IMG/VR virus record: IMGVR_UViG_3300043427_000965 | Coordinates: 1 to 43,850 of that record | Source: a virus | Length of the DNA stretch: 43,850 bases | Direction: 5' to 3' (one strand) | Shown here: positions 3,266 to 15,662 of the stretch, one piece after another | Layout of the letters: each line of letters begins with the position of its first letter | How positions within the stretch are numbered: position 1 is the first letter of the stretch | Translations under genes and position numbers: made by a program | Notes under the pieces: generated by a model | Seen by the model: the letters and a program-made list of their open reading frames with translations, nothing else | Database searches by the model: none | What the model was told of the DNA's origin: nothing

Positions 3266-4036
3266 TTGGCTAGTGGTAGAAAAGCAGCATTAAAGAGCGT
3301 AAATGATGAGACACTTGATAAATTACCAAGAGTTGCAGTGAACAACTCGTTAAAGATAAGGATCGACGATCTAAAAACATTCGAACCACTTACTGAGAAT
3401 CAGAAATTATTTTTTGAAGCTTATAAACGACAAGACTACTTTGTAGCTCTACATGGAGTGGCTGGAACTGGTAAAACATTCTGTGCACTATATAAAGCAC
3501 TAGAAGAAGTACTAGATAAGTCAAATCCCTTCAAGAAAATTATCATAGTTAGATCAGCAGTACAGTCTCGTGAAATCGGGCATCTACCTGGTGATGTGTC
3601 CGAAAAGATGGAGATCTACCAACAACCATATCGTCAGATATGCGAAACCCTCTTCGATAGAAAAGATGCTTGGGATCGCCTAGAAGAACAGGGTTATATT
3701 TCTTTCATATCAACTTCGTTCATTCGTGGAATGTCGTTCGACGACGCGATCATTATCGTAGACGAGATGCAGAACATGACTTTCGAGGAAATAGACACCG
3801 TCATGACTCGTGTTGGTTATCGCTCAAAGATTATTTGGTGTGGTGACTACCGTCAGACAGACCTAAACAAGAAGAAGAACGACGTTAGTGGTATCCTTAA
3901 GTTCTTTGATATCGCGTATCACATGCATGCTTTCACAAAGATTGAATTCACAGTCGACGACATCGTGAGGAGTTCACTGGTTAAGGACTACATCTTAGCT
4001 AAACTAAAGTATGAAGACAATGTTCCAGCATATTAA
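3266..4036 (+). CDS. phoH: PhoH-like P-loop ATPase
   Basis: A 256-residue PhoH-family ATPase. Walker A is GVAGTGKT, followed by the hallmark RSAVQSREIGHLPGD segment. Walker B is IIIVDEMQNM, and a sensor-like GDYRQTD follows. PhoH is a widespread gene of marine phages, and helicase or RNA-related ATPase activity is proposed for the family. The start is taken as TTG at 3266, because GGAGA at 3254-3258 is well spaced and no nearby ATG extends the frame. It overlaps the downstream nuclease by 26 bp. Confidence 0.9.
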   Translation: MASGRKAALKSVNDETLDKLPRVAVNNSLKIRIDDLKTFEPLTENQKLFFEAYKRQDYFVALHGVAGTGKTFCALYKALEEVLDKSNPFKKIIIVRSAVQSREIGHLPGDVSEKMEIYQQPYRQICETLFDRKDAWDRLEEQGYISFISTSFIRGMSFDDAIIIVDEMQNMTFEEIDTVMTRVGYRSKIIWCGDYRQTDLNKKKNDVSGILKFFDIAYHMHAFTKIEFTVDDIVRSSLVKDYILAKLKYEDNVPAY

Positions 4037-4670
4037 CTATGATATTCCAAAACTTGTACGAGTCGATTCGCCTGAAGGTAGAAAATATCAAACACCTTCA
4101 GGTAAGTCGTATCCGTCAGTCACAAGCATTGTCGGACTACTCGGAAAAGAAGCAATTAGAGAATGGCGTTCACGAGTCGGAGAAGAGGAAGCAAATAGAG
4201 TCTCAGCGCGAGCAGCAAGAAGAGGAACTGATGTACACTCGCTCTGCGAAAATTATCTACTCAACAAAGAAGTCAAACCTGGATTATTTGACATAGAGGC
4301 ATTCAATAGCATCAAGCCACTATTGAATCGTATCAATAATATCCACTGTCTAGAGACTCAACTCTTCTCAGACTATCTTCAGGTGGCTGGTACTGTTGAT
4401 TGTATTGCCGAGTTTGATGGACGAGTATCCGTTATAGACTTTAAGACTTCTAGAAGAATAAAGTCACGCGAAGATATTCACGGATACTTCATGCAGACTT
4501 CTGCTTACGCAGTTATGTTTGAAGAACTTACTAAGATTCCAGTAGATCGTCTAGTAATCATTATGTCAGTCGACGACGAAGCACCTTTGCTATTCATCGA
4601 GAAGCGCGACGATTGGATTGGACAATTCATCGAGCTTAGAAAAGACTATTCTAAGTTGCACAATAAGTAA
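4011..4670 (+). CDS. PD-(D/E)XK exonuclease (RecB/MGME1-like)
   Basis: A 219-residue nuclease. The motifs are a helix RGTDVHSLCENYL, an acidic TVDCIAEFDG and the core VIDFKTS (D-x-K), followed by a conserved QTSAYAVMFEEL helix. This is the order seen in RecB-type and MGME1-like single-strand exonucleases, which are common in T4-like marine phages. A second in-frame ATG at 4020 (MFQHINYD) may be the true start, since relatives begin similarly. It overlaps PhoH by up to 26 bp and ends just before the late promoter of the adhesin. Confidence 0.8.
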   Translation: MKTMFQHINYDIPKLVRVDSPEGRKYQTPSGKSYPSVTSIVGLLGKEAIREWRSRVGEEEANRVSARAARRGTDVHSLCENYLLNKEVKPGLFDIEAFNSIKPLLNRINNIHCLETQLFSDYLQVAGTVDCIAEFDGRVSVIDFKTSRRIKSREDIHGYFMQTSAYAVMFEELTKIPVDRLVIIMSVDDEAPLLFIEKRDDWIGQFIELRKDYSKLHNK

Positions 4671-4684
4671 TAATAATCTTTCTT

Positions 4685-4692
4685 TATAAATA
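4685..4692 (+). promoter_or_regulatory. T4-type late promoter (TATAAATA)
   Basis: An exact match to the T4 late -10 consensus recognised by gp55-RNA polymerase. It lies 22 bp before the adhesin ATG, with AAGGAGG as ribosome binding site between. All genes from 4714 to 13748 follow without a visible terminator, so they may be expressed late from here. Confidence 0.75.
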
Positions 4693-6823: not shown

Positions 6824-7825
6824 ATGTATTATTTTGATGATGGTAGTAAATTCTCTTCAAAAATAGAAGCTATTCAATACAGTCTGAAGTCGCAAAAAAA
6901 CTTCAGACTGTATTACTTTGATGAAGTATTTTCTTCTATTGATTGGTCAATAGAACCATCAAACACTCTGCAATATCACTACAAACAACAGGCACAACGT
7001 ATTCGTGATGAATATGATTACGTCGTACTATGCTATAGCGGAGGTGCCGATTCTACAAATATTCTAGAAACTTATGTTTATAATAACATTAAGCTTGACA
7101 AAATAGTTGTTGTTGGTGCATTGAGCGAAGATTCATCTAAAGGCGTTGATGAAAATCACAATGGTGAGTTATACCACAATGTATTTCCTTATCTTAAAGA
7201 TTTAGGATTAGAAGGTATTACACAAATATGTGATTATACTACTTTATTCGACAAACCAGAGAATTTCTCTATATATGAATATGGCGAAAATTGGGTTGAT
7301 GTAGTTGGAACACGATTAAGTCCACACAATTGGTTTTGGCGTGATTTACATAAACATGTAGTTCCTATCGAGTGGCGTAGTAAAAAAGTAGCAATCATTT
7401 TTGGTAAAGACAAACCTAAATTAAGTTATCACGACAATAAATTTGCATTTAGATTTAGTGATATTGTCGTGAATAACTATGGTAATATAGAGACTGTTGA
7501 CAATTGTGATAGAATTAATTTCTATTGGGACCCAAATTATCCGCTTATCATAATCAAACAATTACATATTTTAAAATCACATTTTAATGCATTTAAATTT
7601 GGTGATAGTGTCGATAACATGGTGTATAATTTAAAAAGGCCTTTAGTTTTCAAATCACCTAAAAGTCGATTAAACTATTTAAGTCTAAGAGATAACTTTC
7701 TCGTCAATAAGAAAAATTCTTCAATATATAAATTTTATTTTGATGGTTTACATTATATGAATAAAAAGATTGGCATGAATCACCAAACAATCTACTCAAA
7801 ATTTTACTATATAAATGATAACTAA
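6824..7825 (+). CDS. PP-loop ATP-pyrophosphatase-like protein 1
   Basis: A 333-residue protein with the pyrophosphate-binding loop CYSGGADSTN (SGGADS at 72-77). This marks the N-type ATP-pyrophosphatase fold of QueC, asparagine synthetase B, TilS and similar enzymes, which adenylate a substrate before amidation or sulfur/nitrogen transfer. It shares with proteins 9008 and 11824 an N-terminal WxIEPSxTL signature, (R)xxQxxRxxYDY just before the loop, and a later GKDKPKL motif. It is AT-rich. A perfect 14-bp inverted repeat lies in its first 100 bases. It overlaps the next gene by 11 bp. Substrate unknown. Confidence 0.75.
   Translation: MYYFDDGSKFSSKIEAIQYSLKSQKNFRLYYFDEVFSSIDWSIEPSNTLQYHYKQQAQRIRDEYDYVVLCYSGGADSTNILETYVYNNIKLDKIVVVGALSEDSSKGVDENHNGELYHNVFPYLKDLGLEGITQICDYTTLFDKPENFSIYEYGENWVDVVGTRLSPHNWFWRDLHKHVVPIEWRSKKVAIIFGKDKPKLSYHDNKFAFRFSDIVVNNYGNIETVDNCDRINFYWDPNYPLIIIKQLHILKSHFNAFKFGDSVDNMVYNLKRPLVFKSPKSRLNYLSLRDNFLVNKKNSSIYKFYFDGLHYMNKKIGMNHQTIYSKFYYINDN
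6876..6914 (+). repeat. Perfect 14-bp inverted repeat (hairpin) inside PP-loop gene 1
   Basis: AATACAGTCTGAAG at 6876-6889 is followed by an 11-base loop containing seven A, then its exact reverse complement CTTCAGACTGTATT at 6901-6914. It lies in codons 18-31 of the gene and is read through as coding sequence. No T-run follows on the plus strand, so it is not a standard terminator. Confidence 0.85.
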
Positions 7826-8648
7826 ACATAATTGGTTAAACACAAATATTGGGGAGCGTCTTTTAGATAAATCTGTTGGGTTGAAGTTAAATATCAAACC
7901 ATATAAGTTTAAAAATATATCATTTGACGAAGCAACAGATTTAACATGTTTTCAAATAAACAATATGAATAAGGAAATATACGTAGCGCTCAGTGGAGGA
8001 TATGATTCCGAGTATGTTTTAAGAAGTTTTTGCAAAAATAATGTATGCGTAACACCAATCATAGTTAAGTGTGGTAGAACGGAAGAAACCAAATACGCGT
8101 ATCAAACATGTAATGAACTAAAATTACAACCTATTGTAATTGATATAAATGAAACAGACTTCTTAAATTTTGTAGATAAAAACATCGTTGAAAAATTTGA
8201 TGCAGTTGGGTATAATAGCGCGTATGGAATGATTGCAGCTGAGTATGTTTCCAAAATTCCTAATTCAATTTTAATAAGTGGCGAGCACTTTTTAGGAGAT
8301 GGATTTGATTTAATAACAGATGAAGATTTTTTTATCTCTCACGATTGGGATTTTTATATTGACAATTTTCTAGAAATTCCAGTGAATATAAATTTCTTTA
8401 TGTATAATATAGAAATAGTGTATTCAGTCGTTCCAACTGAAGAGGATAAAGGAATGACTTGGGCAATGTTTAAGTATAAAAAATTTAATTTAAAAATAAG
8501 AGATAAAATGAGATATCACTATACTAGTGAAACGCAAAACAAATTGAATGGTCTATTGAGAAAAAGAAAGCATCCTAATAAAAAATTTGCATTTCGCTTA
8601 ACGAAATCTCAATTTTATGATTGTTTCGAAAAATACAAGGAGATATAA
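7815..8648 (+). CDS. PP-loop ATP-pyrophosphatase-like protein 2 (divergent)
   Basis: A 277-residue protein with YVALSGGYDSEYVL (SGGYDS at 60-65), the PP-loop of the asparagine-synthetase/ExsB-like group. A C-terminal basic stretch (RKRKHPNKK) follows. It lacks the WxIEP N-terminal region and KPKL motif of the other three PP-loop proteins, so it belongs to a different subfamily. The start overlaps the upstream gene by 11 bp, and no clear RBS is seen, suggesting coupled translation. It is very AT-rich. Substrate unknown. Confidence 0.7.
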   Translation: MITKHNWLNTNIGERLLDKSVGLKLNIKPYKFKNISFDEATDLTCFQINNMNKEIYVALSGGYDSEYVLRSFCKNNVCVTPIIVKCGRTEETKYAYQTCNELKLQPIVIDINETDFLNFVDKNIVEKFDAVGYNSAYGMIAAEYVSKIPNSILISGEHFLGDGFDLITDEDFFISHDWDFYIDNFLEIPVNINFFMYNIEIVYSVVPTEEDKGMTWAMFKYKKFNLKIRDKMRYHYTSETQNKLNGLLRKRKHPNKKFAFRLTKSQFYDCFEKYKEI

Positions 8649-9005
8649 ATGGCAAAGTTAATTATGACACATTCTAGAGATGATGTTAGTAAACCTTGGG
8701 TGTATGATTCTCGTGAAAATGCTGTAAGCGGTATGTTTACACCACAAGAAAATATTATTTTAAAATCGACTGTCGTTGGTATAACTTCTCTTCCAGGGTG
8801 GATTAGTACAGAAAATTCTTTTCCAGACAACAATACGCATGTAATAACTCTAAATTTTGATACTTTAGAACATGCTGAAGCTGCTTCTGAATCTTTTCAG
8901 AGTCCTGTTGAAGGTTCTTTATTAGATATAAGAAAAAAATTTTTACTTCAAAAAAGAGAAAGTTTAGGCATAACTTACACGACCACATACTCAGTTACTG
9001 AATAA
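8649..9005 (+). CDS. Hypothetical protein between PP-loop genes
   Basis: A 118-residue protein with a good RBS (AAGGAGAT, 8637-8644) and immediate abutment to the preceding stop. It has a beta-rich start (AKLIMTHSRDDVSKPWVYDS) and a segment HVITLNFDTLEHAEAASESF that looks like a ferredoxin-like or ABM-type strand-helix. No family could be assigned. Its tight position between two PP-loop genes suggests a linked role. Confidence 0.5.
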   Translation: MAKLIMTHSRDDVSKPWVYDSRENAVSGMFTPQENIILKSTVVGITSLPGWISTENSFPDNNTHVITLNFDTLEHAEAASESFQSPVEGSLLDIRKKFLLQKRESLGITYTTTYSVTE

Positions 9006-9007
9006 AC

Positions 9008-10144
9008 ATGTTTTCTGAACTTGGCTATTATATCTGTGATGGTAAAATTTTTGAGACTAAACTCAAAGCAATGATGTACGCTAATGATAAGAAGTTACCG
9101 ATAAAATGGCATTTCAATGATAAAGAATTTGATTCTTATAATTGGGCGATCGAGCCAGAACAAAGTTTAGATTCTTTATATGATGCTAGAGCTCGCCAAA
9201 TTCGTGAACAATTTGATTACGTAATTTTAAGTTATAGCGGCGGCTCAGATACTAATAACATTCTTGAAAGTTTCTTAAGACAAAATCTGTTAATCGATGA
9301 AGTTGTTACTAGTTGGGCACTCGATGTTACTTCTAAATTTATAGTGTGTAATGAAAATGTAAAAGATCCGTGGAATAACAATGCAGAATTTTATTTGCAT
9401 ACTCGGCATCGTTTAGAATATATTAAGCTTAAATCTCCTAGAACAAAAATAACGGTGTTGGATTCATCTAAAAGTATATTAGATGGATTATTAGATAATG
9501 ACAATGCGACATGGGTTGAAACTAAGAATGATGTATTCAACGTAACAGGAGCATTTCAGTACAATCCATTATACTTTTCTAATATTAGAAAATCGTTTGA
9601 TTCGCTCAAAAAAGTTGCATATATTATTGGTGCTGAAAAACCAAAATTGGTTTTAATAGATGATAAACTTTATATGTTTTTTAATGATAAATCTGCTAGC
9701 TTAATACCATTGCGAGAAAATGTTGTAGAATACACCAATATACGTCCTGTTCTTTTTTATTGGTCTCCAGATTCGTGTGCAATGTTAGCTAAACAAGCTC
9801 ACACAGTACTGAAGTATATTAGAACCAATGAGTCTGCTAAACAGATATGGAGATCTAGAGATTTTAGAGTAGCACGAAGAATACAAGAAGAGTTATTGAA
9901 AACAATAATATATACTACATGGAATCCTAATTGGTTCCAAGTTAAAAAATCAATCAGTGATTGGAATTGTGAACTTGATTATTGGTTTACACGTGGATTA
10001 AAACAATCTAAACAATATTCGATTTGGACTGATGGTCTACAAAACTTAATACCCCACATTTCTAATTTTTTAATCTATGAGAATGGAATTGCTAAAGGCA
10101 CTATTGCATATCATAGTAACTATCATTATATAGGATCATTATGA
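9008..10144 (+). CDS. PP-loop ATP-pyrophosphatase-like protein 3
   Basis: A 378-residue paralogue of proteins 6824 and 11824. It has an N-terminal YNWAIEPEQSLDSLY, RARQIREQFDYVILSYSGGSDTNNIL (PP-loop SGGSDT at 77-82), IDEVVTSWALDV, GAEKPKLVLIDDK, FYWSPDSCAMLAKQAH and a C-terminal TTWNPNWFQ...IWTDGLQNLI. All PP-loop residues are present. Relatives with this WxIEP + SGGxDS layout occur in T4-like cyanophages as conserved hypotheticals, as far as I recall. The stop overlaps the start of the first TctC-like gene by ATGA. Confidence 0.75.
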   Translation: MFSELGYYICDGKIFETKLKAMMYANDKKLPIKWHFNDKEFDSYNWAIEPEQSLDSLYDARARQIREQFDYVILSYSGGSDTNNILESFLRQNLLIDEVVTSWALDVTSKFIVCNENVKDPWNNNAEFYLHTRHRLEYIKLKSPRTKITVLDSSKSILDGLLDNDNATWVETKNDVFNVTGAFQYNPLYFSNIRKSFDSLKKVAYIIGAEKPKLVLIDDKLYMFFNDKSASLIPLRENVVEYTNIRPVLFYWSPDSCAMLAKQAHTVLKYIRTNESAKQIWRSRDFRVARRIQEELLKTIIYTTWNPNWFQVKKSISDWNCELDYWFTRGLKQSKQYSIWTDGLQNLIPHISNFLIYENGIAKGTIAYHSNYHYIGSL

Positions 10145-11010
10145 AATATATCATTTCTATCATATTAATGTTTTTTAGTAACGCATACGCATCTCAAGTA
10201 GTTCCTATCGTTTGGCCATTTTCGCCTGGATCTAATCAAGCTAATGCCATTCGAAAAGTAATCGAAAACGCAAATGCTTCACAGAGTAAGTATGTTTTTG
10301 TTTTTGAGAATAAACCTGGAGCAGGTGGATCCATAGCAGTCAATCATGTAATTCAATCTTCTACTCCGGCTTTATTAGCTACTACAACTAGTTTTTTTGT
10401 GCGACCTCGTTATTATCCTAATCAATCACACGACGTAAATGCTATTCAACCAGTTGTTATCATGGCTACAAACGGTCCTCTCGTTCTTATGTCTACTAAA
10501 ATGACTAGTGTGGAAGAGTTGAAGAAAAAGAGTTCGATTAGAATAGGAATAATTCAAGGATCAATTACCGAATCTCTAGCTAGAACTCTACAAAAAAATT
10601 TAAATAATGATGTAGTATTAGTGCCTTATCAGGGAACAATTAATGCCACATCTGATATGATTGGTGGCCATATTGATGCTTCTATTGAATTTATTAAAGA
10701 TGCATTACCCTTTGTTGAAGCAAATAGAGCTAATATAGTTGGTATTACTGGAAATTCTGCTGTTGATAAACATAAAACATTTGAATCACAGGGAATTAAA
10801 GATACAACAGAGATAGTTAATAACTATTATATTGCTGCTAGTGTAAAAATGAGTGAATCTTTAGTTAAAGAACTTTATGAAATATTATCTATTGCAGCAC
10901 AGCAACAAAATGTAGTAGATTTTTGGAAAAGTGATAGCGCTATTTCGACTAAACGCTCTTATAGAGAGACAGTAGAATTTTGGAATAACACTAAAAATTA
11001 TTGGAAGTGA
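10141..11010 (+). CDS. TctC/Bug-type periplasmic solute-binding protein 1
   Basis: A 289-residue exported protein. The signal peptide covers residues 1-17, ending AYA before SQVVPIV. The Bug/TctC hallmarks are WPFSPGS in the ligand loop, the ENKPGAGGSIA segment and VPYQGTINATSDMIGGHIDA. The usual PGGxxDxxAR loop is altered (PGSNQANAIRK), so the ligand may differ from the common carboxylates. The family normally feeds tripartite tricarboxylate transporters, but no tctA or tctB gene is seen here. It overlaps the PP-loop gene upstream by 4 bp. Confidence 0.8.
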   Translation: MKYIISIILMFFSNAYASQVVPIVWPFSPGSNQANAIRKVIENANASQSKYVFVFENKPGAGGSIAVNHVIQSSTPALLATTTSFFVRPRYYPNQSHDVNAIQPVVIMATNGPLVLMSTKMTSVEELKKKSSIRIGIIQGSITESLARTLQKNLNNDVVLVPYQGTINATSDMIGGHIDASIEFIKDALPFVEANRANIVGITGNSAVDKHKTFESQGIKDTTEIVNNYYIAASVKMSESLVKELYEILSIAAQQQNVVDFWKSDSAISTKRSYRETVEFWNNTKNYWK

Positions 11011-11012
11011 TT

Positions 11013-11834
11013 ATGAAAAAATTGATTCTGTCAATAGCTTTAGCTATTGCAACACACTCTGTTTTTGCAAACACTTGCAATATCGTAGTTCCTATTAAAC
11101 CAGGAGGAGCTACTGATATAGTAGCTCGGATTATGCAGAAATATAATCCAAACATTACCATAGACTATAGACCTGGCGTTTACGTCAGTGCTGCGATCAG
11201 TTATGCCGAAAATAATCCTTCAGCTGGGATCATAACATTACCTACGATGTATAGTTCTCAAAATCCAAATAAGAATCCAAATGTAACAGCAATTAAAGTA
11301 TTTGGATCTTATGATCATGGAATTATAACAAATAAAGATATTACTATTAGCGATATTCTTACTAAAAAAATGAATGTAGGAATTTCTTTCTTTGGTAGTC
11401 CTGCTCATGTTATTGGAGAGCAATTAAAGGAAAAAAATCCTAATATCAATTTAGTTTCATTTGGTGGAGATACTAATGCTCTCGCCTCTGTAAAAAATGG
11501 AGATGTAGATGTCTATATTACTGCGTGGCCATCTATAGAATCTTGGACTAATGACTTTAAATTTAAAACTTTGCTAAAGATTACCGCCGGTGCAGGAGTA
11601 ATGATTGAAGATATAAAATTAACCAATATTAGTCTATTCGCTATTTTTATGAGTAACAATTCTACTAGAGAACAAAGATCTCATATGCTCAATTGTGTTA
11701 ATGCTGCGCTCAATAATGAAGGACTGAAAAATGACTTTAAGAAAATATACATGAATATTTTAAATGAAGATGAAGAAAAAGCAACTAAATCTATTCAAAA
11801 TTATATCAATACTTTAATTCGCTATGGTATTTGA
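11013..11834 (+). CDS. TctC/Bug-type periplasmic solute-binding protein 2
   Basis: A 273-residue exported protein with a signal peptide at residues 1-19 (ending VFA). The canonical ligand loop VPIKPGGATDIVARIM is present, and a DYRPG segment stands where NKPG is usual. A second lobe contains VSFGGDTNALASVKNGDVDVYI, matching the conserved YKGxxxAxxDLLxGxVD region. The ATG at 11013 is preferred to an upstream TTG at 11001 because the signal peptide starts there. It overlaps PP-loop gene 4 by 11 bp. It is somewhat shorter than typical family members (about 300). Confidence 0.75.
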   Translation: MKKLILSIALAIATHSVFANTCNIVVPIKPGGATDIVARIMQKYNPNITIDYRPGVYVSAAISYAENNPSAGIITLPTMYSSQNPNKNPNVTAIKVFGSYDHGIITNKDITISDILTKKMNVGISFFGSPAHVIGEQLKEKNPNINLVSFGGDTNALASVKNGDVDVYITAWPSIESWTNDFKFKTLLKITAGAGVMIEDIKLTNISLFAIFMSNNSTREQRSHMLNCVNAALNNEGLKNDFKKIYMNILNEDEEKATKSIQNYINTLIRYGI

Positions 11835-13026
11835 AGACCGCGCGCTAGCAGAAAAATTTTCTGCTATAACTGAAAGAGGATATTGGTCTGTAGCCAACAA
11901 ATTTTTCTTTAATAAAGCTGAATGTCTAAAATACGCAAGTTCTATAAAGAACTATAAAGTAAGTTATACATTCATGGATTTTGCTTATAGAACGTTGAAT
12001 TGGAATATAGAACCATCGGAAACATTAGAAGAACTCTATAAACTTCGAGCTCAACAACTTAGATCAACATACGACTATTTGATTTTATTTTATAGTGGTG
12101 GTGCTGACAGTACTAATATATTAAACACTTATATGGATAATGGTATACATTTAGATGAGGTAGTTACATGTTATCCTATAAGTGTAATTGAAAAAACGAT
12201 TAGTTCATTTACACCAACTGACACTGATAAAAAGAATGTGATGTTTGAATATACACTAGCTGCCCAGCCAAAGTTGAAAGAATTAAGCACTAGATACCCA
12301 AATACTAAAATAACAGTGCTTGATTATTCTACTCTGGCATTAGATATGATTATTACTGATAATCTTAACAAAGTTTTTCAGGCAGGACTTGCAGCAGATC
12401 CATATCATATTAGTCATTATTACGTTGGTCGCGAAATGAGAAAAATATCTGAAACGCGGAGTGTCTGCGCTATTGCTGGGATAGATAAACCTCGATTAAT
12501 GTACGACATGATTAATAAAAAATTTGGTTGTACTTTTCATGATTTAAATACTATATTTGGTAATTTTTCAAATGAATCATTTAATGGTTATATACCTAAA
12601 ATTGAATATTTTTATTATACGAGTTCTCTTCCAACACTTATGCAGAAACAGTGTTTTATTTTAAAAAATGCTTTTATTAATATGGGAATGACCAATCCCG
12701 TTACTGCTAAAAATTTTCTAATTAAAATTAAAGACAGCAAATATCTCATATATAATTCACATACCTCTTTATTTAGAACTATATTGTACCCAACGTGGAA
12801 CGATTCAACTTGGCAAGCTGATAAAGATACTACAAATTTTTTCTATCAAAGCAATTCTAATTGGTATCATACTGACAAATTTACCGATAAAAGACAAAGA
12901 GATTATTATTCCGGTCAAGTGAGTGAGTTAGTTAATGGAATCTCTGAAGTCTTTATTGAGAGAGATAAAGTTACTAATAGAATTAATAAATTAACTGATT
13001 TTATTACTGCGCCAATATGGTTTTAA
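11824..13026 (+). CDS. PP-loop ATP-pyrophosphatase-like protein 4
   Basis: A 400-residue paralogue of proteins 6824 and 9008. It has LNWNIEPSETLEELY, RAQQLRSTYDYLILFYSGGADSTNIL (SGGADS at 91-96), LDEVVTCYPIS, GIDKPRLMYD and a C-terminal YPTWNDSTWQ region. It has about 20 extra N-terminal residues relative to the other two. It overlaps the TctC-like gene before it by 11 bp and the one after it by 10 bp, so PP-loop and TctC proteins are interleaved in one translational chain. Confidence 0.75.
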   Translation: MVFEDRALAEKFSAITERGYWSVANKFFFNKAECLKYASSIKNYKVSYTFMDFAYRTLNWNIEPSETLEELYKLRAQQLRSTYDYLILFYSGGADSTNILNTYMDNGIHLDEVVTCYPISVIEKTISSFTPTDTDKKNVMFEYTLAAQPKLKELSTRYPNTKITVLDYSTLALDMIITDNLNKVFQAGLAADPYHISHYYVGREMRKISETRSVCAIAGIDKPRLMYDMINKKFGCTFHDLNTIFGNFSNESFNGYIPKIEYFYYTSSLPTLMQKQCFILKNAFINMGMTNPVTAKNFLIKIKDSKYLIYNSHTSLFRTILYPTWNDSTWQADKDTTNFFYQSNSNWYHTDKFTDKRQRDYYSGQVSELVNGISEVFIERDKVTNRINKLTDFITAPIWF

Positions 13027-13748
13027 AATTTATACTAGTACTAGCAATATCGTTGAACATAGCATACGCAAATACTATAGAATTCATAGTGTCTGCTTCT
13101 GCGGGAGGTCCTAATGATACTGTGACTAGAGCAATAAGCGCAGAGTTAGAAAAGAATAACTTGAAAATAATAGTGTTAAATAAACCAGGTGCTGCGCACA
13201 CTATAGCATATCAATACGCTTATGACAGTGATAAACCGACATTAATAATGTCTACTTCAGAAATTACACATCATAAAGTTCATGGACAATTAGATGAAAT
13301 ATTTAATGCTGGATATTTTAGAAATGTGTTATATGTTTCATCTAAATCTAATATTAATCATATCAATGATTTAATTTCTATTTCTAAGAATAGACAAATT
13401 AAATTTGGTTATGGAGGAGTTGGATCTTATAGTCATATGGCAATGAAAACAATATGTGAGCATAAGTTAAACTCGAATTGTTTAGAAGTCGCTTATAAAG
13501 GTGGGTCTGTTGGGATGTTAGATGTTATGCGTGGCGAAATAGATGCATATGCTCTTGTATCATATGGCTCATCTCAGTTTTCCAACAACGATAAACTTAA
13601 AGCGATATACGATATTGACATTGGAAAAGAAAAGAGCTGGTTTAAACTGTTTTCTAAAAATATCTCTTTAAAAGATAGACAAATCATATTAGATACTTTG
13701 AATTCTTTAGATAATAAGTTCTATCAAGATATGGGATTCAAAAAATAA
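13017..13748 (+). CDS. TctC/Bug-type periplasmic solute-binding protein 3 (short)
   Basis: A 243-residue exported protein, the shortest of the three. The signal peptide is residues 1-18 (ending AYA). The ligand loop reads VSASAGGPNDTVTRAI (Asp and Arg kept), followed by LNKPGAAHTIAYQYA and AYKGGSVGMLDVMRGEIDAYA, all diagnostic of TctC/Bug proteins. The C-terminal lobe seems trimmed relative to the family. It is the last gene of the accessory cassette; the tmRNA promoter begins two bases after its stop. Confidence 0.75.
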   Translation: MVLKFILVLAISLNIAYANTIEFIVSASAGGPNDTVTRAISAELEKNNLKIIVLNKPGAAHTIAYQYAYDSDKPTLIMSTSEITHHKVHGQLDEIFNAGYFRNVLYVSSKSNINHINDLISISKNRQIKFGYGGVGSYSHMAMKTICEHKLNSNCLEVAYKGGSVGMLDVMRGEIDAYALVSYGSSQFSNNDKLKAIYDIDIGKEKSWFKLFSKNISLKDRQIILDTLNSLDNKFYQDMGFKK

Positions 13749-13750
13749 AT

Positions 13751-13779
13751 TTTACTTTAAATCTGGAATAATATATAAT
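13751..13779 (+). promoter_or_regulatory. Promoter of the permuted tmRNA gene
   Basis: TTTACT (13751-13756), 17-bp spacer, TATAAT (13774-13779). Predicted +1 is about 13786, just before the acceptor piece. The spacer has AATCT where most other promoters of this window have ATTCT. Confidence 0.7.
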
Positions 13780-13785
13780 ACTATA

Positions 13786-14158
13786 TGATCGTATGAAGTT
13801 GACCGAAAGGTGTTTCGGACGGCGGTTCGATTCCGCCCAGGTCCACCAGAAAACTCTTTGAGTAGCTACACTAGATAAACAGAAAAACTTGCTAAAGTCG
13901 ACCAAAGCAAGGACTTGCTAGGAAGAAGGGCTACCATGATTTCAAGTATCGCAGAGAGTTTTCTAATGGGCCTGACCTGGTTTCGACGGGGCAAGTATTA
14001 GGGATACAGACGATTCGGCAATGTGAAAGTCGTAGGGTTGAGGCAACTCGGCCGAAGAAACAAAAACGTAAACGCAAACGACGAACAGTTCGCATTGGCT
14101 GCCTAAACTCGGCCTAGGGTTTCGGTGGGTTTCCTCGTAACAGAATAACCCATCACTA
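13786..14158 (+). ncRNA. ssrA: Circularly permuted (two-piece) tmRNA gene
   Basis: The 3' part comes first. The acceptor piece (about 13786-13848) has a T-arm GGCGG-TTCGATT-CCGCC, the acceptor strand CAGGTCC and an encoded ACCA. An intervening segment (13849-13967) follows, whose ends pair (GAAAACTCT with AGAGTTTTC). The coding piece starts at 13968 with GGGCCTGACCTGGTTTCGACGG. GGGCCUG pairs with CAGGUCC and gives a G-U at the third pair, the alanine identity element. GTAAAC precedes the resume codon at 14074. Both outer ends are estimated. The gene fills the only gap above 300 bases; I see no protein gene in it. Confidence 0.9.
14074..14106 (+). other. tmRNA tag reading frame (ANDEQFALAA)
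   Basis: The reading frame runs GCA AAC GAC GAA CAG TTC, then GCA TTG GCT GCC TAA, encoding a 10-residue proteolysis tag ending ALAA. The alanine-ending tail is that expected for ClpXP/ClpAP recognition. The AND-E start and ALAA end resemble betaproteobacterial tags as I remember them. Confidence 0.85.
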
Positions 14159-14173
14159 AAAAGGAGATCACTG

Positions 14174-14704
14174 ATGCATCTTATGAAACTTGTTTTCATA
14201 AGCATTCTTGGCTACTTTTTCGTGCAGCACTTTCACCTATTAGTTGATCAAAAGTTTGAAGAGGTTAAGGAGAGTAAGCATCCGCCATATGTTACATTGG
14301 CACAGCGCGAAAGAGAGTTAGACTGTTTAACGAAAAATATATACTATGAAGCAGGGATAGAACCGTTTGAAGGAAAAGTAGCAGTAGCTCAAGTGACAAT
14401 CAACAGGACTAAATCTGGAAAATTTCCAACAGACATATGTGCAGTTGTATACGAACGAAATTTAGTGTATAATAATTTCATATGTCAGTTCAGTTGGTAT
14501 TGTGAAAGTAAAACAAAGGTAAGGCCTATTCATGTTGCAACATATAAAGAATCCGAGGCTGTGGCTAAAAAAGTACTTCTCGAAGGATTCAGACTCGACA
14601 TCATTAAAGAGGACACACTATACTATCATGCAGACTACGTCAACCCCCGATGGAAAAAACAACGAGTCGCCAAAATTGGAAAACACATCTTCTACAAAGA
14701 CTGA
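14174..14704 (+). CDS. SleB-type cell-wall hydrolase (endolysin candidate)
   Basis: A 176-residue protein. Residues 5-24 form one hydrophobic segment (signal anchor), then a charged linker leads to the Hydrolase_2/SleB domain: LTKNIYYEAGIEPFEGKVAVAQVTINR with catalytic-type Glu59, followed by FPTDICAVVYE and an FSWYCE segment. SleB-like enzymes cleave peptidoglycan glycan strands. The N-terminal anchor suggests export by Sec, like SAR endolysins. AAGGAG at 14161-14166 gives a strong RBS for ATG 14174. The downstream membrane gene overlaps its 3' end, as in a lysis cassette. Confidence 0.75.
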   Translation: MHLMKLVFISILGYFFVQHFHLLVDQKFEEVKESKHPPYVTLAQRERELDCLTKNIYYEAGIEPFEGKVAVAQVTINRTKSGKFPTDICAVVYERNLVYNNFICQFSWYCESKTKVRPIHVATYKESEAVAKKVLLEGFRLDIIKEDTLYYHADYVNPRWKKQRVAKIGKHIFYKD

Positions 14705-15020
14705 CTGGTTGAATAAGTTCTCTAATATTAAGAGTTCTATTAAATATTTTCTAGAACATAAGCTTCGACCTAGCACTGCAGAGTCGATTGGGTGGATTGG
14801 TTTAGTACTCTTATTGGTTTCTCTAATCCCAACATTTCTGGCTATCATGGCGGGCATCACAGATAAAATGCCCGCTATTGATTTAGTTCTATTCATGTGG
14901 GGAGCGCTTGTAACTTTCTTCATTAGAGCAGCGATCTTAAAAGATACTGTAGTCGTATTAACTGTAGGAATTGGATTCATTGTCAATTCCGTATTCATGG
15001 CTCTTATACTATTCAAGTAA
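14628..15020 (+). CDS. Three-helix membrane protein, holin candidate
   Basis: A 130-residue protein. A polar, Lys/Ser-rich N-terminus of about 50 residues is followed by three hydrophobic helices: IGWIGLVLLLVSLIPTFLAI, LVLFMWGALVTFFIRAAIL and VVLTVGIGFIVNSVFMALILF. The ATG at 14628 is chosen; an earlier in-frame ATG at 14532 would make a longer overlap with no RBS. It overlaps the SleB gene by 77 bp. Size, helix number and location next to a cell-wall hydrolase fit a class I holin. Holins have no diagnostic motif, so this is inference. Confidence 0.5.
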   Translation: MQTTSTPDGKNNESPKLENTSSTKTDWLNKFSNIKSSIKYFLEHKLRPSTAESIGWIGLVLLLVSLIPTFLAIMAGITDKMPAIDLVLFMWGALVTFFIRAAILKDTVVVLTVGIGFIVNSVFMALILFK

Positions 15021-15032
15021 TTGGAGATTAGC

Positions 15033-15662
15033 ATGTCTGAAATACTCGAAATTGGTCGTCCTAAGATTCACTCTAATGGGTATTTTCCAAGTAAGCCCGT
15101 ATCGCAACTTCACGAGTTTTACTTAACTGGAGAGATAGGATCTGCCGAAGATTATGTAGAATGGTTTGATGCTATTCGACATGCTAGTGAATACGATACG
15201 ATTAAGATTTATATCAACTCCTCAGGCGGTGATCTATTTACAGCGATTCAGTTCATGAGAGTATTGGCAGAATCAGAAGCCACAATTATATGCTCTGTTG
15301 AAGGTGCCTGCATGAGCGCAGCAACTATGATATTCATGTGCGCCGATAGCTTTGAAGTAACACCTCATTCTATCTTTATGTTTCACAATTATTCTGGTGG
15401 AACTATTGGTAAGGGCGGCGAAATGATAGACCAACTGCAGCACGAGCGCAAGTGGTCTGAGCGTCTTATGAAGGAAATCTATTCCGACTTTATGTCTGAC
15501 GACGAAATAAAAGCGATGTTGAATAACAAAGACTTTTGGATGGATGGCGAAGAAGTCGTAAAGCGTCTATCTAACAAGATCAAGACTCTTCAGAAGCCAA
15601 AAGAAGCTCCCTCAGCTAAACCTAAGCGCAGGCCGGTCGCCAGAAAAAAAGTAACACGATAA
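15033..15662 (+). CDS. clpP: ClpP-like serine protease
   Basis: A 209-residue ClpP/crotonase-fold protease. INSSGGDLFTAIQFM forms the oxyanion-hole region, nucleophile S95 lies in GACMSAATM, and the catalytic His is H118 in FMFHNYSGG. An acidic KDFWMDGEE region follows. The C-terminal tail is basic (KPKRRPVARKKVTR). ATG 15033 is chosen because TTGGAG lies 7-12 bases upstream; an in-frame TTG at 15021 is less likely. ClpP-like proteases occur in T4-like marine phages. Roles in proteolysis of head or host proteins are possible; no Clp ATPase gene is seen nearby. Confidence 0.8.
   Translation: MSEILEIGRPKIHSNGYFPSKPVSQLHEFYLTGEIGSAEDYVEWFDAIRHASEYDTIKIYINSSGGDLFTAIQFMRVLAESEATIICSVEGACMSAATMIFMCADSFEVTPHSIFMFHNYSGGTIGKGGEMIDQLQHERKWSERLMKEIYSDFMSDDEIKAMLNNKDFWMDGEEVVKRLSNKIKTLQKPKEAPSAKPKRRPVARKKVTR

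Follow-up and report, generated by a model that had tools for sequence, protein, structure and literature searches.

Two-piece tmRNAs encoded by phages are a described class, with 53 of them reported by 2022 (PMC9004378). Their carriers include the Methylophilales phage Melnitz and the Pelagibacter phages Mosig and HTVC008M (PMC9004378), and the Melnitz gene has been proposed to have been taken from an alphaproteobacterium or acquired by exchange with a prophage (PMC9004378). In huge phages, tmRNAs and phage-encoded SmpB have likewise been reported (PMC7162821). The DNA analysed here, hereafter the window, comes from IMG/VR, where it is a virus record; it has 43,850 bases and carries T4-like baseplate genes. 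By gp6, its closest cultured phages are Mosig, Melnitz and HTVC008M (36-37% identity), and, like these related T4-like phages, it carries a permuted tmRNA.

Identity and parts of the gene

A preliminary description, made from the window's letters alone, proposed a circularly permuted, two-piece tmRNA at this position and suggested an Infernal scan as a check. In that scan both permuted models match window positions 13787-14154 (cmscan): the Rfam model tmRNA_permuted (RF04321) with 125.8 bits, E 2.4e-24 and a gathering cut-off of 47, and beta_tmRNA (RF01850) with 118.6 bits, E 1.2e-35 and a gathering cut-off of 84. ARAGORN, which is independent of Rfam, also calls a permuted tmRNA, with the tag ANDEQFALAA. 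These matches support the assignment of the gene as a phage-borne permuted, two-piece-type tmRNA of the betaproteobacterial class. Its predicted parts are as follows:

13751..13779, plus strand: sigma-70-like promoter match TTTACT-17-TATAAT (10/12, consensus only), with an expected start at about 13786
13787..13848, plus strand: acceptor piece, with the 5' strand of P2 (GATCGT, 13787-13792), the T-arm, the acceptor 3' strand CAGGTCC, the discriminator A and an encoded CCA
13849..13967, plus strand: IVS-119, the intervening segment (IVS) removed in the two-piece model, with an outer stem of 13 bp and inner helices (from the fold and compensatory changes)
13968..14154, plus strand: coding piece, with the acceptor 5' strand GGGCCTG, GGTTTCGACGG, the P2 3' strand ACGATT (14010-14015), the tag frame and a conserved 3' TGGGTT/AACCCA helix; the 3' end is approximate
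14074..14106, plus strand: tag reading frame, with the resume codon GCA, ANDEQFALAA and the stop TAA (ARAGORN)

The order of the halves is as first described: the acceptor/T-arm half, ending in TCC-ACCA at 13848, lies upstream of the GGGCCTGACCTGGTTTCGACGG half, which begins at 13968, and the spacer between them is exactly 119 nt. A standard one-piece tmRNA (RF00023), in which the GGG...CGACGG end comes first and the CCA end last, was ruled out by this reversed order. The acceptor stem comprises 7 bp (GGGCCTG/CAGGTCC) and contains the G-U noticed earlier at its third pair, G3-U70, which is the pair that marks alanine tRNAs. The pairing of the spacer ends also holds: beyond an internal loop formed by CCA-side and AAT-side bases, they lengthen the acceptor stem by 13 bp (MFE -44.3 against a shuffled mean of -30.2, z -3.8), while the gene as a whole folds with z -3.7. 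The P2 helix joining the two pieces has 6 bp, one more than had been given. In the tag frame both the alanine resume codon and the degron end are present (ARAGORN). Within the coding piece, where pseudoknots are expected, one segment differs by about 22 nt between relatives.

The gene had also been credited with its own promoter. A sigma-70-like sequence does lie directly before the RNA 5' end, but it is a consensus match only, one of four such matches in the window against a chance expectation of 2.0, and is a weak candidate for the tmRNA promoter. Among the relatives described below, an exact ATAAATA is found upstream of 18 of 66 genes, against 2.2 in shuffles, most often 7-8 nt before the RNA; this heptamer is the late promoter core of T4 and cyanophage (PMC2984593). 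The window tmRNA has TATAAT in place of this core. Elsewhere in the window exact ATAAATA cores stand shortly before genes at 4686, 19795, 26064, 26085 (minus strand) and 33351, and the heptamer as a whole is rarer than chance (8 against 21.5).

Relatives, locus and maintenance

Relatives were collected in IMG/VR by matching both conserved ends at several spacer lengths, and from loci adjoining the downstream hydrolase; this gave 111 matches, corresponding to 75 distinct genes. The acceptor ends, the CCA, GGTTTCGAC and some of the T-arm are prescribed by the pattern and were barred as evidence, while the rest remained free; because the pattern forces G3-U70, the invariance of this pair is not claimed from the set. 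The helices show compensatory changes in these relatives. When 52 distinct IVS stems, each of nine pairs, are compared, pairing holds in 94% of cells, versus 67% when the 3' ends are dealt anew (z 15.6), and P2 is fully paired in 59 of 67 distinct relatives, where shuffling gives a mean of 30 and a maximum of 39. Acceptor pair 4:69 occurs as GC, CG, TA and AT, and pair 5:68 as CG, AT and GC. Tags end in LAA in 62 of 73 relatives. The compensatory changes in the IVS stem and P2 across the 75 related phage genes show that this is a maintained gene rather than a relic.

The view that phage tmRNAs are rare was overstated, although the phage setting itself stands: such genes had already been published (PMC9004378), and they are now found as 75 distinct copies in IMG/VR and, unannotated, in cultured phages. 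Examples of the latter above the cut-off are L122 in HTVC008M (NC_020484, 145161-145370) and L123 in Xanthomonas phage X1 (OQ427096, 121009-121337). Three other permuted phage tmRNAs (L088, L145, L180) have unusually long predicted tags of 29-31 amino acids, which are mutually similar and end in FAV rather than LAA. In a 349,660-base virus record (L102) two CTA-anticodon tRNAs lie beside the permuted tmRNA, perhaps for amber suppression.

The genes that define the surroundings of the tmRNA in the window are:

3266-4036: PhoH-like gene, preceding the exonuclease gene
4011..4670, plus strand: PD-(D/E)XK-type exonuclease gene (phrog_298, E 8e-73), the usual upstream neighbour, here 9 kb from the tmRNA
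14174..14704, plus strand: cell wall hydrolase gene (PF07486, E 9e-23), the usual downstream neighbour
15021-15662: ClpP-like protease gene (PF00574, phrog_1827), 0.9 kb downstream of the tmRNA

Exonuclease or PhoH lies upstream on the same strand in 44 of the 64 related genes with enough sequence, and hydrolase or gp32 lies downstream in 50 of 63, with no case of opposite-strand placement in either set. Exonuclease and tmRNA are between 5 nt and 6 kb apart in relatives; in the window the distance reaches 9 kb and is taken up by a TctC/PP-loop cassette. The placement between a TctC cassette and the hydrolase given in the preliminary description is thus correct locally but is not the general form, the conserved locus being exonuclease, tmRNA and hydrolase, with the TctC cassette as a variable insert. 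This cargo island (6824-13748) encodes at least three PP-loop-like (SGGxDS) proteins that match no Pfam family, in alternation with TctC/Bug-like binding proteins, two of which have PF03401, and PP-loop relatives directly precede the tmRNA in four other records as well (L004, L005, L153, L183). As listed, the hydrolase frame shares 173 bases with the membrane-protein frame that follows it (14174-15020), and a later start, near ATG 14628, would reduce this overlap.

In Mosig, Melnitz and HTVC008M the tmRNA likewise follows a PD-(D/E)XK nuclease or exonuclease, with PhoH also before it in Melnitz, and is followed by a late-transcription factor. As this locus is common to the alpha-type marine relatives and the beta-type lineage of the window, the gene looks resident rather than recently captured, which suggests that it has long had its place in a single T4-like locus. 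In a FastTree phylogeny of the mature sequences, built from a short alignment with a midpoint root and used only for the separation of bacteria from phages, 20 bacterial genes group together and no phage gene falls among them. The shared position with different classes might reflect either an ancestral gene that followed, or was replaced from, successive hosts, or recurrent replacement at this position. A recent one-off capture is made less likely by the locus data.

Exchange and conservation of the intervening segment

Comparison of close relatives separates the history of the IVS from that of the coding piece. L007 and L110 agree at 199/199 positions of the coding piece and 995/999 of the next kilobase, yet their IVSs (70 versus 119 nt) are unrelated, as is the DNA just upstream. 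Similarly, L011 and L085 are 100% identical in the compared coding stretch and differ in acceptor stem and IVS. Conversely, phages that share IVS-119 at 97-98% identity agree less well in the mature halves, which differ by about 5-15%: identity is mostly 85-94% in the aligned coding pieces and 85-97% in the acceptor pieces. In the tree, the eight IVS-119 tips cannot be gathered into one group without also taking in 14 genes with other IVSs, and IVS families of 61 and 67 nt show the same behaviour. Being unrelated beside identical coding pieces and near-identical in divergent phages, the IVS behaves as an exchangeable module, and its exchange between phages would most simply proceed by homologous recombination through the conserved flanking halves. 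Recombination by itself does not explain why IVS-119 varies less than the mature RNA around it; this might reflect either its recent spread on its own or constraint. Among gene pairs with 70-90% coding identity, IVSs at least 90% identical are found in 28 of 801 phage pairs and in 0 of 143 pairs from 20 bacterial permuted genes, a trend only, as gene pairs are not independent.

The IVS form of L085, 82% identical to IVS-119, retains 39 of the 40 pairs that folding of the window sequence by itself predicts, four of them by double change, and 4-5 pairs are altered on both sides; 43 and 22 of 100,000 permutations do as well (p ~4e-4 and ~2e-4). Such retention would be expected of a processing hairpin as well as of a passenger RNA. 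A known ribozyme or riboswitch was ruled out, as no Rfam match was obtained for the window IVS at E up to 1, nor for the other IVS families. A free mobile element was also rejected, because every occurrence of the IVS core in IMG/VR lies within a tmRNA gene (15 contigs, of which 14 have the gene and one is cut by the contig end), and so was a short frame from ATG 13936 across the IVS, which is not conserved, L106 having AAG in place of the start codon. A search of the open-access literature, which misses most subscription journals, turned up no account of IVS exchange.

Predicted function and relation to known systems

Taken together, these observations make it very probable that the window carries a functional permuted ssrA gene of the betaproteobacterial class in a T4-like myophage; its processing and charging, its tagging activity and any advantage to the phage are inferred. 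The best reading is a working two-piece tmRNA using host SmpB. A precursor starting near 13786 would fold as a long hairpin in which the IVS ends lengthen the acceptor stem, and host tRNA-processing enzymes would excise the IVS to leave two RNAs joined by the acceptor stem and P2. Host AlaRS might then charge the CCA end by way of G3-U70, and host SmpB would bring the charged tmRNA to stalled ribosomes, where ANDEQFALAA would tag the stalled product for Clp proteolysis. During infection the phage might gain by keeping ribosomes free while host and phage mRNAs are cut. Of 20 phage records carrying a tmRNA, 19 lack SmpB, so that use of the host protein is assumed. The exception is a 296,594-base record (L097 and L260) with a full-length SmpB (PF01668, E 3e-55), in which permuted tmRNA, SmpB, ClpP and a sigma factor occur together and which looks like a jumbo phage. 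A permuted tmRNA scoring above the cut-off is present in just 9 of 200 genomes of the order Burkholderiales, so that the host may itself use a one-piece tmRNA.

That the gene is instead a decaying host capture with no phage role appears very improbable. Its neighbours are variable cargo (TctC-like and PP-loop proteins), and a close relative, L002 (hydrolase 98% identical), has a broken copy that lost the coding piece and kept the acceptor piece and IVS, so that the gene is dispensable in that phage. In this relic (1200-1640) the 74-nt IVS and acceptor piece are intact, and after GGGCCTGAC the coding piece is replaced by part of the reading frame that follows the tmRNA in L106. Decay is already contradicted, however, by the conservation data, as dozens of divergent phages keep the tags intact, the locus fixed and the IVS stem and P2 paired through compensatory change, and the phage genes fall outside the group of the 20 sampled bacterial genes. 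It is improbable, too, that the phage tmRNA mainly destroys host proteins for their amino acids, a recycling role already proposed (PMC9004378), or works with the phage ClpP-like protease. That protease is encoded close behind the tmRNA here and, at 0.25-0.4 kb, in two records of 317-350 kb, and it also occurs in L002 and L003 (75% identical). Yet in the clade to which the window belongs, only L003 and the broken L002 resemble the window in having ClpP after the tmRNA, and the tags are of the ordinary kind. A tmRNA-ClpP partnership was rejected, as ClpP is found in 14 of 28 records with a tmRNA versus 3 of 10 without, which is no clear enrichment.

The IVS invites a further reading, compatible with the tmRNA role, in which the 119-nt segment is an RNA with its own job, such as a small RNA freed by the cuts that mature the tmRNA, so that selection explains both its conservation and its spread. 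The near-identity of IVS-119 in divergent phages, the two-sided changes in the L085 form and the occurrence of conserved IVS pairs among the phage genes but not in the bacterial sample would fit this possibility, which we nevertheless consider doubtful: compensatory pairs would arise from a processing-only hairpin as well, recent transfer of the IVS alone would also yield high identity, close relatives have unrelated IVSs, no Rfam family matches, and the gene pairs lack independence. A rather unlikely extension is that in this phage lineage the IVS is a slot for structured RNAs with their own functions, tmRNA maturation releasing a passenger small RNA and phages trading passengers by recombination in the conserved tmRNA halves.

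The betaproteobacterial permuted tmRNA (RF01850) is of the same class as that of the window, and against sampled bacterial genes the coding piece of the window reaches 84-86% identity. None of the 20 bacterial genes parsed encodes the CCA (they have ACCT, ACCC or ACCG), and their IVSs measure 24-48 nt, in contrast to the ACCA and 119-nt IVS of the window gene; because of this lack, the pattern with an encoded CCA has no match in bacterial genomes. Melnitz, Mosig and HTVC008M share with the window a tmRNA locus after a PD-(D/E)XK nuclease, and Melnitz shares PhoH. Their tmRNAs, however, score best with the alphaproteobacterial model and that of the window with the betaproteobacterial one, and the glutamine riboswitch behind the Melnitz tmRNA was not found in the window. 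The Stenotrophomonas and Xanthomonas phages Marzo, DLP6 and X1 also carry permuted tmRNAs, but at a locus unrelated to that of the window (near tRNA genes in Marzo and DLP6), with IVSs of 31-126 nt and tags such as ANDDSFAPMAIAA. The 75 distinct genes provide a set for comparing the two-piece architecture, the helices between the pieces and the supposedly discarded segment, whose role becomes a directly testable question. Phage two-piece tmRNAs are thus known as a kind; what is new is the beta-type carrier group, the locus it shares with alpha-type carriers and the exchangeable structured IVS. To the marine alpha-type carriers of these RNAs, this adds a large group of beta type that is uncultivated.
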